Part shown: in pieces, positions 22,191-28,620 of the stretch
Layout of the letters: each line of letters begins with the position of its first letter
Position numbering within the stretch: position 1 is the stretch's first letter
NCBI RefSeq assembly: GCF_016862575.1
Contig: NZ_BONF01000015.1
Coordinates: 1 to 64,000, forward strand
From: Catellatospora bangladeshensis
Lineage (GTDB): Bacteria > Actinomycetota > Actinomycetes > Mycobacteriales > Micromonosporaceae
DNA: 64,000 nt
Direction of reading: 5' to 3'
The notes under the pieces: model-generated
Told to the model about the DNA's origin: nothing
The model's input: the letters and a program-made list of their open reading frames with translations, nothing else
Database searches by the model: none
Position numbers and translations under genes: made by a program

Positions 22191-22352
22191 GCTGGGGATC
22201 AGGGCGCGCTGCCGGATGCATCATCCGGCGCCATCCGGGGTACTGCTGAGGGCACGTCCGTGACGAAGGTCGACGAACGCCGAGCCTGGCTGGCCCGAGC
22301 CGGAAGGGCATCCGGCCCGGCGCCGGTCCACGCATTGCCGAGGGTGCCGATC

Positions 22353-24242
22353 ATGGACTACACGGAGGCGTACCGCCGCAGTATCCGGGACCCCGCCGGC
22401 TTCTGGGGTGAGGCGGCCGCGGACATCGAGTGGTTCCGCGCACCCACCACGGTGCTGGACGACACGCGGCCGCCGTTCTACCGCTGGTTTCCCGACGGTG
22501 TGCTCAACACGTGCTTCAACGCGCTCGACCGGCACGTACGCGACGGCCGAGGCGAGCAGGCCGCGCTCGTGTACGACACGCCGGTCACCGGCGCCGACCG
22601 GACGCTGACCTATGCCGAGTTGCTAGACCAGGTGGCGCGGTTCGCCGGCGTGCTGCGGGGCCTGGGCGTGGGGCACGGCGACCGGGTGCTGATCTACATG
22701 CCGATGGTGCCGGAGGCGGTCGTCGCGATGCTCGCCTGCGCGCGGATCGGAGCCGTGCACTCGGTGGTGTTCGGCGGGTTCGCCGCCCACGAGCTGGCGC
22801 TGCGCATCGAGGACGCCGAACCTGCCGTGATCGTGTCCGCGTCGTGCGGCATCGAGGTCAACCGGGTCATCGAGTACAAGCCGATCCTGGACAGGGCGAT
22901 CGAGACGGCGGCTCATGAGACCCGTGCCTGCGTGATCCTGCAACGGCCGCAGGCCGCCGCCGCGCTGACGGCGGGACGCGACGTCGACTGGTCCGAGGCC
23001 ATGGCCACGGCCGAACCCGCCGGCTGCGTGCCCGTCGCGGCGACCGACCCGCTCTACATCCTCTACACCTCCGGCACGACCGCCCGCCCGAAGGGGGTGG
23101 TCCGGGACAACGGCGGGCACGCCGTGGCGCTGCGCTGGAGCATGAGGTACATCTATGACACCCACCCCGGCGAGGTGTTCTGGGCCGCCTCCGACATCGG
23201 CTGGGTGGTGGGGCACTCCTAGATCGTGTACGGGCCGCTGATCACCGGCTGCACCACGGTGCTCTACGAGGGCAAGCCGGTGGGCACGCCGGATTCCGGT
23301 GCGTTCTGGCGGGTCATCGCCGAGCACGGGGTCAAGGCGCTGTTCACCGCGCCGACGGCGTTCCGGGCGATCCGCCGTGACGATCCCGAGGGGCTTCGGG
23401 TCCGGGACGCGGACCTGTCCGGCCTGCGGTATCTCTTCCTCGCCGGCGAGCGCCTGGACCCGGATACCTACGGCTGGGCGGCGCGGCTGCTGGGCGTGCC
23501 CGTCATCGATCACTGGTGGCAGACGGAGACGGGCTGGCCGGTCGCCGCGAACCTGATGGGGCTGGAGCCGCGTGAGCCGCGGCCCGGTTCCGCGACGGTG
23601 CCGGTGCCGGGTTATGACGTGCGCGTGGTCGACTCGCTGGGCAGGCCCGTGCCGGCCGGCGAGGACGGGGAGATCGTGATCCGGTTGCCGCTGCCGCCGG
23701 GGACGCTGCCGACGCTGTGGCGCGACGACACCCGGTTCGTGGAGTCATACCTGTCCGCGCACCCGGGCTTCTACCTGACCGGCGACGGCGGGCACGTCGA
23801 CCCCGACGGCTATCTCTACGTCATGGGCCGTATCGACGACGTCATCAACGTCGCCGGCCACCGCCTGTCGACGGGTGCGATGGAACAGGTGCTCGCCGGT
23901 CACCCGGCCGTGGCCGAATGCGCGGTCATCGGTGTTCACGACCCGGTCAAGGGGCAGGTGCCGAGGGCGCTGGTCGTGCTCAAGGCCGGTGCCCAGGTCG
24001 AGGCGGACGCTCTGCGCCAGGACCTGGTCCGGCTGGTGCGCGAGCAGATCGGCCCGATCGCCGCGCCGTCCGCCGTCGACGTCGTATCTGCGCTGCCCAA
24101 GACGCGGTCCGGCAAGATCCTGCGTAAGACGATGCGCGCGATGGCGGACGGGCGGGACGAGCCGGCCCCGTCCACCATCGAGGATCCGGCGGTGCTGGAG
24201 ACGCTGCGGCCGCTGTTGACGCCTCGATCAGCACAGTGGTGA
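22353..24242 (+). pseudogene. prpE: Propionyl-CoA synthetase-like gene interrupted by an amber codon
   Basis: AMP-forming acyl-CoA synthetase of the PrpE/Acs type, 629 codons. The opening MDYTEAYRRSIRDPAGFWGE, the P-loop YTSGTTARPKGVVRD, the YLTGDGG core and the C-terminal acylation-site Lys in PKTRSGKILRK are all present and in one frame. The frame is broken once: TAG at 23220-23222, after GWVVGHS and before IVYGPL. In the family this position is Tyr (GHSYIVYGPL), so one C-to-G change explains it. The rest retains perfect codon bias, so the lesion is recent, a sequencing error, or read through. Without suppression the N-terminal product lacks the whole C-terminal half. ATG 22353 has AGGG eight bases upstream. 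Confidence 0.85.
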
Positions 24243-24419
24243 ACAGGGCCCACGTCGCGCCGCTGACGCCGAGGTCGACCTAACGGATCCCGGCATTCGC
24301 CGATCATCGGATCATCGCCGGGCACCGGTCTGGCTAAACTCGACAGTGGCGGCCGATTCGCCTATCAGGCCGTACGCCGGACGGGCGGCAAGCCGGTCCA
24401 GAGCCCTTGTGGAGGTGGC

Positions 24420-24863
24420 GTGCGGGTCAGCGACGTGATGTCGGCGTTCCCGGCGTACATACGGCTCGGCGCCACGATCCGGCGGGCGGCCGAGGTGGTC
24501 AGCGTGTCGGAGGTCGGCAACCTGATGGTGCTGGACCACGAAGGCCGGTTCGTCGGCTCACTGTCCGAAGAGGACCTGGTGCGGGCCATGCTGCCCGGCT
24601 TCGACGACGTCACCGCCGGCGGCGGCACGCTCGCCGACGCGTTCCGGATCTTCCTGGAGCGCGGCCGCACCCTCGCCGACCGCCCCGTCGACCCGCTCGT
24701 CGTGCGCGACACGGCGAGCGTCCGCTCGACCGACGAACTCGCCCGCGCGGCGATCGTGATGCTCGACCGCGGGATCCGGCGGCTTCCCGTCGTCGACGAC
24801 GGCAAGCTCGTGGGCACGCTGTCCCGCGCCGACCTGTGCCGAGCGGTGATCTACCATTCCTGA
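24420..24863 (+). CDS. CBS-domain protein
   Basis: A 147-residue protein made of two CBS motifs, a tandem that usually binds adenine nucleotides as an energy sensor: VSDVMSAFPAYIRLGATIRRAAEVVSVSEVGNLM is the first (cited parts VSDVMSAFPA and EVGNLMVLDHEG), and DTASVRSTDELARAAIVMLD with GIRRLPVVDDGKLVGTLSRAD the second. GTG 24420 is preceded by GGAGGTGGC. Its stop lies only 50 bases before the GTG of the FHA-IDO gene and probably overlaps that gene's true start, so the two are coupled. It may regulate the fusion enzyme; that is inference. Confidence 0.88.
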   Translation: MRVSDVMSAFPAYIRLGATIRRAAEVVSVSEVGNLMVLDHEGRFVGSLSEEDLVRAMLPGFDDVTAGGGTLADAFRIFLERGRTLADRPVDPLVVRDTASVRSTDELARAAIVMLDRGIRRLPVVDDGKLVGTLSRADLCRAVIYHS

Positions 24864-24912
24864 ACTCCGGCTGATCCTGACCGATCGGCACACCCAGGCG
24901 ACCAGCGAGCGG

Positions 24913-27900
24913 GTGTGCGCGCTGCCGATCACGTTCGGCCGTGACGCGGGCATGGCCGCGGTGGCGCTCGACGACAGCAGCGTCTCCCGGCGCCACGCCC
25001 GCCTGGAGATGGTCGACGACTATCTCGTGCTCACCGATCTCGGCAGCACCAACGGCACCTACGTCAACGACCAGCGGCTGACCCGCCGCCAGGCGCTCGC
25101 TCCCGGGGACCGGATCCGGATCGGCCGGTACGACCTGACGTGGCGGTACGTCGACCCGAACGCCACGATGTCCGTCGACGGCTCCCACCTGACCGTCCAC
25201 CGGCCGGACGCCCCGCCCGACGTCGCCGCCCGGCGGGTGGTGACCGCCGCGCAGGCGCACAACCAGCGGGTCGGCCACGAGCTCGACGGCTTCCTGTCGG
25301 TCGCGCACGGGTTCCTGCCCGCGCAGCCGCCGCTGCTGGCCTTTCCCGACTCGCACCGCGCCTGGGACGAGATGACCGACCGGCTGCCGGACCTGTTCCG
25401 GCGGCTCACGCTGCGCCGGGCGTTCGACGCGATGCCGGTCCTCGACGCCAGACCGGAGGCGCTGCCCGACCGGTACCTGCTGCGCGCCTCGACCATGCTG
25501 GGCGTCTTCGCCCACGCCTACCAGTACATGGCGATCGACCCGCCCGCCGCGCTGCCCGACTCGCTGCTGCGGCCGTGGACCACCGTCTCCCGGCGGCTGG
25601 GCAAGCAGACGCCGGCCGTGTCGTACATCGACCTGTTCTTCTACAACTGGCGCCTGCGCGACCCGGCCGGCCCCCGGGCGCTGGACAACATGGATCTGCT
25701 CGTGCCGACGTGGAACAACGCCGCCGAGCGGGTGTTCTACCTGGTCACGACCGAGTTCGCGATGGGGCTCACCCCCGTCCTGGGCGCCATGCTCGACGCC
25801 CAGGAGGCGGTGGTCGCCGACGACCCGGCCGCGCTGGAGGGCGCGCTCCTGGTGATCCTCGACCAGCTGCAGCACGTCACCCAGGCGATCTACCCCCAGA
25901 TCGATCCCAACCCCCGCGCCCGGCATCCGCTGGACCAGGTGCTGTGGGCCAAGACCGTCGGCACGGCCGGAGTGCCGATCTTCGACGGCGCGCCCAGCCC
26001 GAGCGGCACCGCCCAGCCCCAGATCCACGCGCTGGACGCGTTCCTCGAACGCCGGGACTACGGCTCGCTGGTCGGGCAGCAGAGCACCTACCTCGCCGGC
26101 TACTTCCCGCGGCACTGGCAGGAACTGGTGGCGGCGCTGCGTGAGGTGTCGGTGCGCCAGTACGTGGAGGACAGCCGCAGCAGCGCCCTGCGCGGGGTCT
26201 ACAACGCCATGTTGAACGCCTACGTCGGCGACCGCGGCTGGATGGGCCTGCACCGCATCAAGGCGTACGGCTTCCTGGAGGTGGCGTTCAAGGTCGGCCG
26301 GCAGGTGACCACCGGCGCCCGGTTCACCGGCCTGTTCAAGGACCGGACCTGGGACAAGGTGGACGGGGAGCTGGCCGTCGTCCGCGAGGAGCGCCGCCCT
26401 CCGGTGGGCGCGCCCGTGGTGTTCGGGACCGCTCGCCGGGGCCGGGTCGTCACCGGCGAGTCCGGCGCCTGGACCTGCTACCTGGACATCGACGTCACCG
26501 GCCAGGGCGTGCACCACCTGCCCGGCGACCGGGTCGGGGTGCTGGCCGAGCACGACGACGACCTGGTGCGCCGCACCGTCGCCGCGCTGCAGGCCACCGG
26601 CGACGAACTGGTGCCGCTCACCCCGAGCTGGCGTGCGGCGGTGGCCTGCCGGGAGGGCTACGGCGAGGTCGACGTCCTGCCGCTGCGGACGCTGCTGCGC
26701 TTCGCCCGGCTCCGGCCGATCGGCCGGGAGGTGGCCAAACGGCTGGTGAAGCTCACCGCCGTCGGCGCGTGGCAGCGGGTCGTCGACGCCCGCATGGAGG
26801 ACCAGTGGGAGCTGTGGGACGTCCTGAACCTGCTGTACGCGGGCGGGTATGACGTCGCCCGGCTGTGGAAGGCCGACGCGGGCGAGCACGACGCCTTCTG
26901 CGCGGTCATCGCGCCCGAGCCGTTCCGGCTGTACTCGATCGCTTCGGCTCCGCCGCCCGGCGAACCGGCGACCGCCCTGAAGCTGGTCGTCGCCGGGCTC
27001 GACTACACCTCCGCCCGTACGCCGTGGTCGTACCCGCGCAAGCGCCAGGGTGCGGCCTCGCACTTCCTGCGCCGGGCCGGCCTCGACGGGCGGCAGCGGC
27101 TCGCCCTGCAGATCGTGGCCACGCCCAGGTTCCGGCTGCCGGCCGACCCGGCCCGGCCCGTCGTCATGTTCGCCGCCGGCTCCGGCATCGCCCCGTTCCT
27201 GGGGTTCGTCGCCGCCCGCACCGGGCCCGGCGAGAACCGTCTCTACCTGGGCATCCGTACGCCGGACGAGTTCGTCGAACACCCCGAGCTGGATACGGCG
27301 GTCGCCGCGGGCCGGCTGCACCTGTCCGTCGCGTTCTCCCGCGCCGATGCCGCGATCCAGTTCGACGGCCGGCGTCACGGCGTCGGGGCCGGGCAGCGGC
27401 GCCGCGTCGACGACGTGATCCGCGCCGAGGCCGACGCCCTGTGGGAGCTGCTGCGGCCCGTCGCCGACGGCGGCCGCGGCGCGTTCGTGTACGTCTGCGG
27501 CAGCTCACGCTTCGCCGTCGCCGTGCTCCAGGCGCTTACCGGCATCGTGCCCGGCGACGGCCGCGAGTTCCTGCGACAGCTGGTGGCCGACGGACGCCTC
27601 GCCCAGGACGTGTTCACCACGTATCTGGGCCACGCGCAGCAGACCCCTCGCTTCGAGATCTCGGACCTGGCGCAGCACGACACGCCCGAGGCGGGCTACT
27701 GGATGGCGATCGGCGGCGCCGTGATCGACGTCAGCGAGTTCATCCACCTGCACATCGGCGGGCCGCACATCGTGCGCAACTACGTCGGCATGGACGCGAC
27801 CGCGGCGTACCGCAAGGTGCTGCACCACGCCCACGCCGAGATCGACTCCCAGCTGTCGATGTACCAGATCGGCCACCTGCGCCGGCTGCAGTTCGGCGCC

Positions 27901-28620
27901 CGCTGGGGCGTGGTGCTCGACGAGGACGGCCTGCACTCGCTGCCGCTGGAGGAGCTGTTCCGGACCTGGGTGCGGTTCCTGTACATGCTGGTCGCGATGC
28001 GGAACGCGCTCACCGCCGACTACGGCTTCACCACCTCGGTCACCACGATGGGCGAAGACCCCCGGGAGCTGACGCCGTTCAAGGCGCAGTACGTCATCGA
28101 GGGGCACCGCAGGTTCCTGGTCAGCTATCTCGACGGGCTCCTGCACGACGACCTGCGCACGCTGTGGCAGCACACCGTCGGCTTCTGCGACCCGCGGCAG
28201 GACGTCCGGCAGCTAGACGCCGAACTCGCCGCCCTGTCGGAACGGCCGGACGTCACCCTGGTGCGCAGCTCCGTAAGCGCCGTCAAGGAGCTGCTGCTGA
28301 TCGGCGAGGACCTCCCCCGGGTCACCGCGCTGTGCCGGACGTACGCGCACGCCGACGTGCAACTGCTCGGCGACCTGAAAGCCGCCGTGCTGCAGGGCAT
28401 CCGGGCCTTCGAGGTGCACGAGGCCGACGTCGTCGAGCAGGCGGGAGGCACGCTGCTGACGGCCGTCCGTGACGTGCTCGCGGCGGTGTCCGCCTACTAC
28501 GAGCGCCTGGCCGGGCAGACCCGCGCTCAGGGCGTCGTCGCCCACGGGGCGGTCGAGGAACCGATTCCGGTGGACCGGGGGCTGCCCGGTCACGGCGGTC
28601 CGCTGCTGCTCCCCGATTGA
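24913..28620 (+). CDS. FHA - IDO-like haem dioxygenase - diflavin reductase module - cytochrome b5-like fusion
   Basis: A self-contained redox fusion of at least 1235 residues. 1-80: FHA domain (ITFGRDAG, SVSRRHARLE, GSTNGTYVN) for phosphothreonine binding. 105-465: indoleamine 2,3-dioxygenase-like haem domain (LPDSLLRPWTTVSRRLGK, YIDLFFYNWRLRDP, VSVRQYV; proximal His447 in GWMGLHRIK). 495-905: FAD/NADPH module of the P450-reductase/NOS class (RLYSIAS 672-678, AAGSGIAPFLGF 754-765, VYVCGSS) with a connecting domain but no FMN domain. 928-985: cytochrome b5-like (His947 in LHIGG, GMDAT, second His near 971). 990-1205: helical, unknown. Predicted action: NADPH to FAD to cyt b5 to haem to keep IDO ferrous. 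The GTG at 24913 cuts off the first FHA strand (ELRLILTDRH is encoded upstream), so ATT 24856 or CTG 24871/24877 may be the real start. Confidence 0.85.
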   Translation: MCALPITFGRDAGMAAVALDDSSVSRRHARLEMVDDYLVLTDLGSTNGTYVNDQRLTRRQALAPGDRIRIGRYDLTWRYVDPNATMSVDGSHLTVHRPDAPPDVAARRVVTAAQAHNQRVGHELDGFLSVAHGFLPAQPPLLAFPDSHRAWDEMTDRLPDLFRRLTLRRAFDAMPVLDARPEALPDRYLLRASTMLGVFAHAYQYMAIDPPAALPDSLLRPWTTVSRRLGKQTPAVSYIDLFFYNWRLRDPAGPRALDNMDLLVPTWNNAAERVFYLVTTEFAMGLTPVLGAMLDAQEAVVADDPAALEGALLVILDQLQHVTQAIYPQIDPNPRARHPLDQVLWAKTVGTAGVPIFDGAPSPSGTAQPQIHALDAFLERRDYGSLVGQQSTYLAGYFPRHWQELVAALREVSVRQYVEDSRSSALRGVYNAMLNAYVGDRGWMGLHRIKAYGFLEVAFKVGRQVTTGARFTGLFKDRTWDKVDGELAVVREERRPPVGAPVVFGTARRGRVVTGESGAWTCYLDIDVTGQGVHHLPGDRVGVLAEHDDDLVRRTVAALQATGDELVPLTPSWRAAVACREGYGEVDVLPLRTLLRFARLRPIGREVAKRLVKLTAVGAWQRVVDARMEDQWELWDVLNLLYAGGYDVARLWKADAGEHDAFCAVIAPEPFRLYSIASAPPPGEPATALKLVVAGLDYTSARTPWSYPRKRQGAASHFLRRAGLDGRQRLALQIVATPRFRLPADPARPVVMFAAGSGIAPFLGFVAARTGPGENRLYLGIRTPDEFVEHPELDTAVAAGRLHLSVAFSRADAAIQFDGRRHGVGAGQRRRVDDVIRAEADALWELLRPVADGGRGAFVYVCGSSRFAVAVLQALTGIVPGDGREFLRQLVADGRLAQDVFTTYLGHAQQTPRFEISDLAQHDTPEAGYWMAIGGAVIDVSEFIHLHIGGPHIVRNYVGMDATAAYRKVLHHAHAEIDSQLSMYQIGHLRRLQFGARWGVVLDEDGLHSLPLEELFRTWVRFLYMLVAMRNALTADYGFTTSVTTMGEDPRELTPFKAQYVIEGHRRFLVSYLDGLLHDDLRTLWQHTVGFCDPRQDVRQLDAELAALSERPDVTLVRSSVSAVKELLLIGEDLPRVTALCRTYAHADVQLLGDLKAAVLQGIRAFEVHEADVVEQAGGTLLTAVRDVLAAVSAYYERLAGQTRAQGVVAHGAVEEPIPVDRGLPGHGGPLLLPD

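Follow-up and report, generated by a model that had tools for sequence, protein, structure and literature searches.

A bacterial IDO-type haem protein with fused reductase and cytochrome b5 modules: a candidate self-sufficient oxygenase

Flavohaemoglobin combines a haem domain, of a fold other than that of IDO, with an NADPH/FAD module in one polypeptide. Here we describe a gene from a 64,000-nucleotide stretch of the Catellatospora bangladeshensis genome (assembly GCF_016862575.1, contig NZ_BONF01000015.1, positions 1 to 64,000 of the forward strand; hereafter, the window), whose product joins an IDO-type haem domain to an FAD/NADP(H) reductase module and a cytochrome b5 domain. In Ncb5or (CYB5R4) and cytochrome b5 reductase, an FAD module hands electrons straight to b5, as we propose for the window protein, with a different class of reductase and a different terminal acceptor domain. 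The haem domain shares its sequence family (Pfam PF01231) and proximal His with IDO1 and IDO2. According to the part of the source available, P450 reductase can support IDO1 in vitro whether or not b5 is present, and whether such reducing systems operate in vivo is called unclear (PMC13142367). PrnB, MarE and other members of the haem-dependent aromatic oxygenases (HDAO superfamily, characterized by a four-helix core with a lid and by histidine ligation of the haem) are related to IDO and are reported, in the accessible portions of two papers, to carry out diverse reactions outside the kynurenine pathway (PMC11791213, PMC11904535). With b5 or P450 reductase supplied in the assay, PrnB gave no detectable product (PMC11791213, as excerpted), and the excerpts of both papers mention no fused electron supply for these enzymes, unlike the case of the window protein.

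Self-sufficient P450/P450-reductase proteins and flavohaemoglobin share with the window protein the union of a haem domain and an NADPH/FAD module in one chain; their haem folds are different, however, and the window protein has no FMN domain and appears to employ b5 as the carrier. CysJ and NADPH-P450 reductase (CPR) have the same FAD/NADP module, but again the window protein differs in having no FMN domain, and it scores far under the equivalog cut-off. Compared to IDO1 and IDO2, it has a fused reductase, b5, a C-terminal helical domain (CT) and an optional FHA domain, has lost the equivalent of Arg231, and lacks the loop that follows it. The arrangement of FHA, IDO, reductase and b5 is not described in any of the literature matches listed, which cover few subscription papers; an earlier note, made from the window sequence alone, likewise knew of no such protein. 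Judged by its domains, the protein is a self-contained IDO-type haem enzyme assembled from known parts, with b5 as the putative built-in carrier. Evolution seems to have wired a P450-reductase-class FAD module and a b5 to an IDO haem within one chain, so that the electron path to such a haem should be directly measurable.

We consider it reasonably probable that the protein belongs to the IDO branch as a self-sufficient haem oxygenase, in which electrons run from NAD(P)H through FAD and b5 to the IDO-type haem, the substrate is probably not tryptophan, and FHA and CBS modules gate the activity. If so, a regulated, non-tryptophan branch is to be added to the haem-dependent aromatic oxygenases.

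Table 1. Features of the locus. Residue numbers, here and in the text, refer to the frame read from 24913 unless stated otherwise.
Feature	Position	Strand	Basis or remark
GGAGG ahead of CBS gene	24411-24415	+	Read from sequence
CBS-pair gene, 147 aa	24420..24863	+	Pfam CBS 75.1 bits; directly upstream, stop overlaps main-gene start region
GGTGA, possible ribosome-binding site of main gene	24845..24849	+	Sequence; inside conserved overlap
ATT, most likely start codon of main gene	24856..24858	+	Comparison of FHA-type loci
Main gene FHA-IDO-FNR-b5-CT (FNR, reductase module), 1254 aa	24856..28620	+	
FHA domain	24856..25170	+	Pfam FHA 68.4 bits, residues 6-71
IDO-type haem domain	25210..26400	+	Pfam IDO 104.6 bits, residues 129-436
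WAKTVG motif	25945..25962	+	G350 at position of IDO1 Arg (FFSVLR, Arg231)
Proximal His447	26251..26253	+	Conserved in relatives; aligned with His of canonical IDOs
FAD/NADP(H) reductase module, CysJ/CPR class, without FMN domain	26434..27615	+	
Cytochrome b5 domain	27661..27879	+	Pfam Cyt-b5 46.9 bits, residues 917-989
b5 haem ligands His947, His971	27751-27753, 27823-27825	+	Conservation in relatives
C-terminal helical domain (CT)	27880..28587	+	No Pfam match; helices in AlphaFold model

Domain architecture and the probable electron path

Pfam recognizes FHA, IDO, NAD_binding_1 (26.6 bits, residues 752-871) and Cyt-b5 in one open frame, all four above their curated cut-offs (26 bits in the case of IDO), which bears out the domain composition proposed in the earlier note. 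The AlphaFold model of residues 100-1235, for which 41 aligned sequences were used, reaches a mean pLDDT of 88.7 and a pTM of 0.88, with an all-helical IDO domain of high confidence. Relatives were collected in one scan of named genomes with a pattern confined to the IDO domain; it hit 73 stretches, and 67 of these code for a relative. These 67 loci, several of which share a genus and do not represent independent events, span Actinomycetota, Chloroflexota, Myxococcota, Bacteroidota and other groups. The homologue search suggested in the earlier note thus found the same domain order in many genera, and on that ground we reject a chance fusion or assembly error.

The complete FHA-IDO-FNR-b5-CT arrangement is found in 31 of the 67 loci, every one with a CBS gene upstream; 12 more have the CBS gene and IDO-FNR-b5-CT without FHA, and two with a CBS gene are cut at a 3' contig end. 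In another 12 loci no CBS gene is seen next to IDO-FNR-b5-CT: these are L091 and L097, which lie at 5' contig edges, six from Aquimarina, and four with a GGACT/AIG2 domain in front. Nine loci encode IDO-b5-CT in one frame without the reductase, and in one (L107) IDO and b5-CT are two adjacent genes, with no reductase match in the locus. A recount of the architectures agreed with the first count.

NCBIfam assigns residues 508-901 to the sulfite-reductase-alpha/CysJ-like family at 100.9 bits, where the equivalog cut-off is 432, and the top solved-structure matches of the module include P450/P450-reductase fusions. No flavodoxin or FMN family of Pfam matches the main protein up to E = 1, in agreement with the lack of an FMN domain claimed earlier. 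Conservation was counted in a MAFFT alignment of the 67 loci, each domain where it is present. Among the 57 loci with a reductase, the R-Y-S motif of the FAD site has its Arg in 56 and its Tyr in 55, and the Gly-x-Gly motif is found in 56; the single miss of both the Arg and the Gly-x-Gly is L102, which runs into a contig end. The two haem ligands of b5 are His in 65/65 and 64/65 (the miss is a gap in L097), and the GG that follows the first of them is invariant (65/65).

The predicted mechanism starts with reduction of FAD by NAD(P)H in the CysJ-like module. FAD would then reduce the b5 haem, and b5 would either hold the IDO-type haem ferrous or provide one electron per turnover; the ferrous haem would bind O2 and use it on a small organic substrate. 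The immediate electron donor to the IDO-type haem is likely to be b5, since b5 is kept beside IDO in the nine one-frame members that have no reductase, and the reductase looks like an added electron source. A likely route from NADPH/FAD via b5 to the IDO-type haem, all within a single chain and with FAD passing electrons to b5 directly, as the earlier note had it, is thus supported by the lack of an FMN domain, by the conserved bis-His b5 and proximal His, and by the retention of b5 where the reductase is missing. It could be imagined that reductase and b5 supply some other partner, and that the IDO domain is a scaffold or haem store; we find this most improbable, because b5 accompanies the IDO domain in every one of the 65 loci that are not cut at the 3' side, even those without the reductase (64 in the same frame, one in the adjacent gene), in a set of loci picked by the IDO motif only.

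The haem pocket and the substrate

The proximal ligand proposed earlier, His447, lines up in an L-INS-i alignment with the His found in canonical bacterial IDOs, and is present in 67/67 loci. A family profile of 42 rows, three of them canonical bacterial IDOs, matches the solved structure of IDO1 with E = 1.2e-55, and that of IDO2 is also matched.

The substrate site is a different matter. In IDO1 the residue that we take to be numbered 231 is Arg, and we presume that it binds the substrate carboxylate. When the family profile is aligned with IDO1, its counterpart in the window protein is Gly350, and Ala or Gly occupies this position in 67/67 loci, a count that is biased by the adjacent WAKTV columns, which were part of the search pattern and whose own invariance proves nothing. 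We therefore turned to a pattern-free check, a PF01231 search of 394 genomes of the class, which gave matches in 13 at E up to 1e-10. Eight of these are canonical IDOs, in open frames of 390-468 residues, scoring 298-356 bits and with Arg at the position in question in 8/8; the five b5-type IDOs, our own included, score 94-107 bits, and have Gly or Ala in 5/5. The loop that follows is deleted in the b5 type. Traces of the SG and TxGG loops are still present, and the SGT loop in the pocket region is conserved across phyla. A conserved pocket Glu was dropped as a distinguishing residue, as some canonical IDOs carry Asp there.

Tryptophan breakdown has its own enzymes in the source organism, as gauged by the genes: TDO adjoins kynureninase on contig 43, elsewhere in the genome. 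A TDO match occurs in 14 of 16 member genomes and a kynureninase match in 13 (matches taken up to E 1e-30; 10 of these 13 pass the family cut-off). Given these genes and the loss of the Arg presumed to hold the carboxylate, L-tryptophan is probably not what the protein acts on. If it were a tryptophan or indoleamine dioxygenase that reduces itself, the electron path would be unchanged, and L-tryptophan or a close analogue would be turned into N-formylkynurenine. Membership in the IDO family by profile, the match of the family profile to solved IDO1 and IDO2, and the loop remnants all speak for such an enzyme, but the Ala or Gly in place of Arg231, the loop deletion, the location of TDO and kynureninase, and the lack of any kynurenine-pathway family among the neighbour representatives run against Pfam make it distinctly unlikely. 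The tryptophan or indoleamine conversion suggested by the earlier note finds no support here.

Another alternative is that the protein detoxifies or buffers rather than synthesizes, with NADPH-driven dioxygenation of nitric oxide, or reduction of O2 or peroxide, much as in flavohaemoglobin, except that an IDO fold would replace the globin. The combination of haem and an FAD/NADP module in one chain follows the same logic, and control by signalling domains of a general kind (FHA, CBS and in some cases a receiver) would suit a stress response; conservation of the SGT loop across phyla, on the other hand, better suits a specific organic ligand, and the distribution of the family is sporadic. Such a role seems unlikely, and an oxygenase acting on a small organic substrate remains the reading that we prefer.

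In a different setting, a membrane protein of the DUF2231 family with a cytochrome b5 domain adjoins a canonical stand-alone IDO (L122:2777-3646).

Signalling modules, gene neighbourhood and the start of the main gene

FHA is found in 31/67 loci and not found in 36/67, a few of which are cut at the 5' end. Where it occurs, the residues that we take to form the phosphothreonine-binding core (G, R, S, R, H, S, N, G) are kept in 31/31 rows. In the proposed scheme, FHA would recognize a phosphothreonine of its own chain or of a partner protein, the CBS protein encoded by the overlapping upstream gene would read an adenine nucleotide, and together these signalling parts would set when the enzyme runs. 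The phosphothreonine switch put forward in the earlier note is plausible as a regulator, but FHA is an add-on, being not found in 36 of the loci.

A CBS homologue is the commonest neighbour, located upstream in 45/67 loci. In seven longer CBS proteins compared to Pfam, a receiver domain scores over the cut-off in L089 and L102 and below it in L043, L085 and L086, and is not listed for L104 and L090, the latter searched only to E 0.01. These domains raise the prospect that the protein is a sensor rather than an enzyme, its haem and redox state being read out through FHA and CBS with turnover incidental. Besides FHA, CBS and the receiver of two proteins, a CT with no invariant His or Cys is in line with this idea; we nonetheless hold it quite improbable, because the FAD and most NADP motifs persist in members that lack FHA and CBS, for example in Aquimarina.

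A RidA-like gene is located further upstream in nine loci, as seen in sequence clustering of 50 loci and tested by Pfam in one, L089; in L089 (1145-2586) and similar Chloroflexota loci, the RidA-like gene and then a receiver-CBS gene precede the enzyme. CBS and RidA-like neighbours may suit a regulated enzyme with a possibly reactive product.

Several observations weigh against a regulated, self-sufficient oxygenase with a substrate other than tryptophan. In two further alignments, the gap ahead of the proximal His falls one or two residues away. FAD_binding_1 scores 13.7 in the window protein against a cut-off of 32.3; it is over the cut-off in seven of nine relatives tested (L077, L092, L093, L094, L100, L106 and L115), but not in the reductase-less L117 and L107. 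The NADP-type Ser (50/57) and Arg (48/57) are not universal as a pair. TDO has no match in two of the 16 member genomes, and no gene for product processing recurs in every one of the 50 clustered loci, the gene context being different between clades.

The start of the main gene is most likely the ATT at 24856, overlapping the CBS stop, and not the GTG at 24913 assumed in the earlier note. No stop interrupts the frame from 24850 onwards, and the stretch ahead of 24913 shows protein-level conservation and supplies the beginning of FHA; we reject the GTG, as it would cut the first FHA strand. ATT occupies the start position in 31/38 distinct FHA-type loci from several actinomycete families (39 FHA-type rows minus four repeat genomes, plus the window, L009 and L011). 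The other seven have a different start (L037/L074, L038, L039, L071, L078, L079 and L082), and in one of them, from Pseudonocardia oroxyli, ATG stands exactly at the position of ATT. In the 31 ATT loci, the middle T of ATT also forms the third position of a His codon in the CBS gene. This T is probably kept for initiation, since CAT makes up only 80 of 1112 His codons in the main genes of the same loci, which were picked for having ATT and are related, so that codon counts are descriptive only. A +1 frameshift at UCC-UGA that would fuse CBS to FHA is unlikely: in these 31 loci AUU is constant and the Ser codon varies (25 UCC, 3 UCG, 2 UCU, 1 UCA).

Further upstream in the window there is an acyl-CoA-synthetase-like gene, named by eye (22240-24242), with an in-frame stop at 23220-23222 that is either a mutation or a sequencing error; the copy in the nearest relative, L049, is intact. 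We rejected this gene as a clue to function, as it adjoins the system only in L049 among L037-L118. Neither the main protein nor the CBS protein matches any family of the PADLOC anti-phage defence models up to E 0.001, and there was no match in the plasmid collection. In L096 (2758-3525) and four more Aquimarina loci, the gene directly upstream has weak similarity to DsbA (26.4 bits for the single representative compared), and a relative of it lies near the split genes of L107. L110, a reductase-less form from Streptomyces, is near genes for an AraC-type regulator, a monooxygenase-like FAD_binding_3 protein and an MFS protein.

Distribution of the family and its C-terminal domain

In a tree of 42 IDO domains, a fully supported branch splits 39 b5-linked rows from three canonical bacterial IDOs, in a topology with long branches between groups that drew a warning from the tool that long branches meet. 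The presence of FHA requires one or two changes on this tree, corresponding to one or two gains or losses of the domain.

The full-length gene is found in 11 of 150 genomes of the same bacterial family (our own and ten others, with 79-97% identity in the best-matched stretch); the closest named relative, at 93%, is Catellatospora paridis. At the level of the order, 7/298 genomes matched, our own included, six with b5-linked proteins and one with a canonical IDO; in the phylum sample, 4/396 matched, again with our own, one having a canonical IDO only and one both kinds.

CT consists of about 240 residues (990-1235) folded mostly into a helical bundle, and is conserved without belonging to any Pfam family. 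When solved structures were queried with b5-CT, the b5 part found b5 chains, and the CT part had only one insignificant match (E 1.2). CT seems specific to the b5-type IDO family, given that the CT profile matched six of 249 genomes of the order, two of them weakly (E 6e-6 and 6e-5), and all six carry a b5-type IDO. The earlier note had missed this domain, as well as the CBS partner gene and the upstream start.

More tentatively, these proteins may represent widespread, undescribed single-chain IDO-type oxygenases, in which b5 would be the obligate built-in reductant, the substrate would have no free alpha-carboxylate, and activity would be switched by phosphothreonine (through FHA) and adenylate (through CBS); we see this broader proposal as possible, though short of probable.

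Two variants of the architecture may be noted. In L092, L093, L094 and L115, from Myxococcota and Oligoflexales, the GGACT/AIG2 domain fused ahead of IDO is gamma-glutamyl cyclotransferase-like. In Herbidospora solisilvae, the full and the reductase-less forms (L057 and L111) are encoded on one contig.

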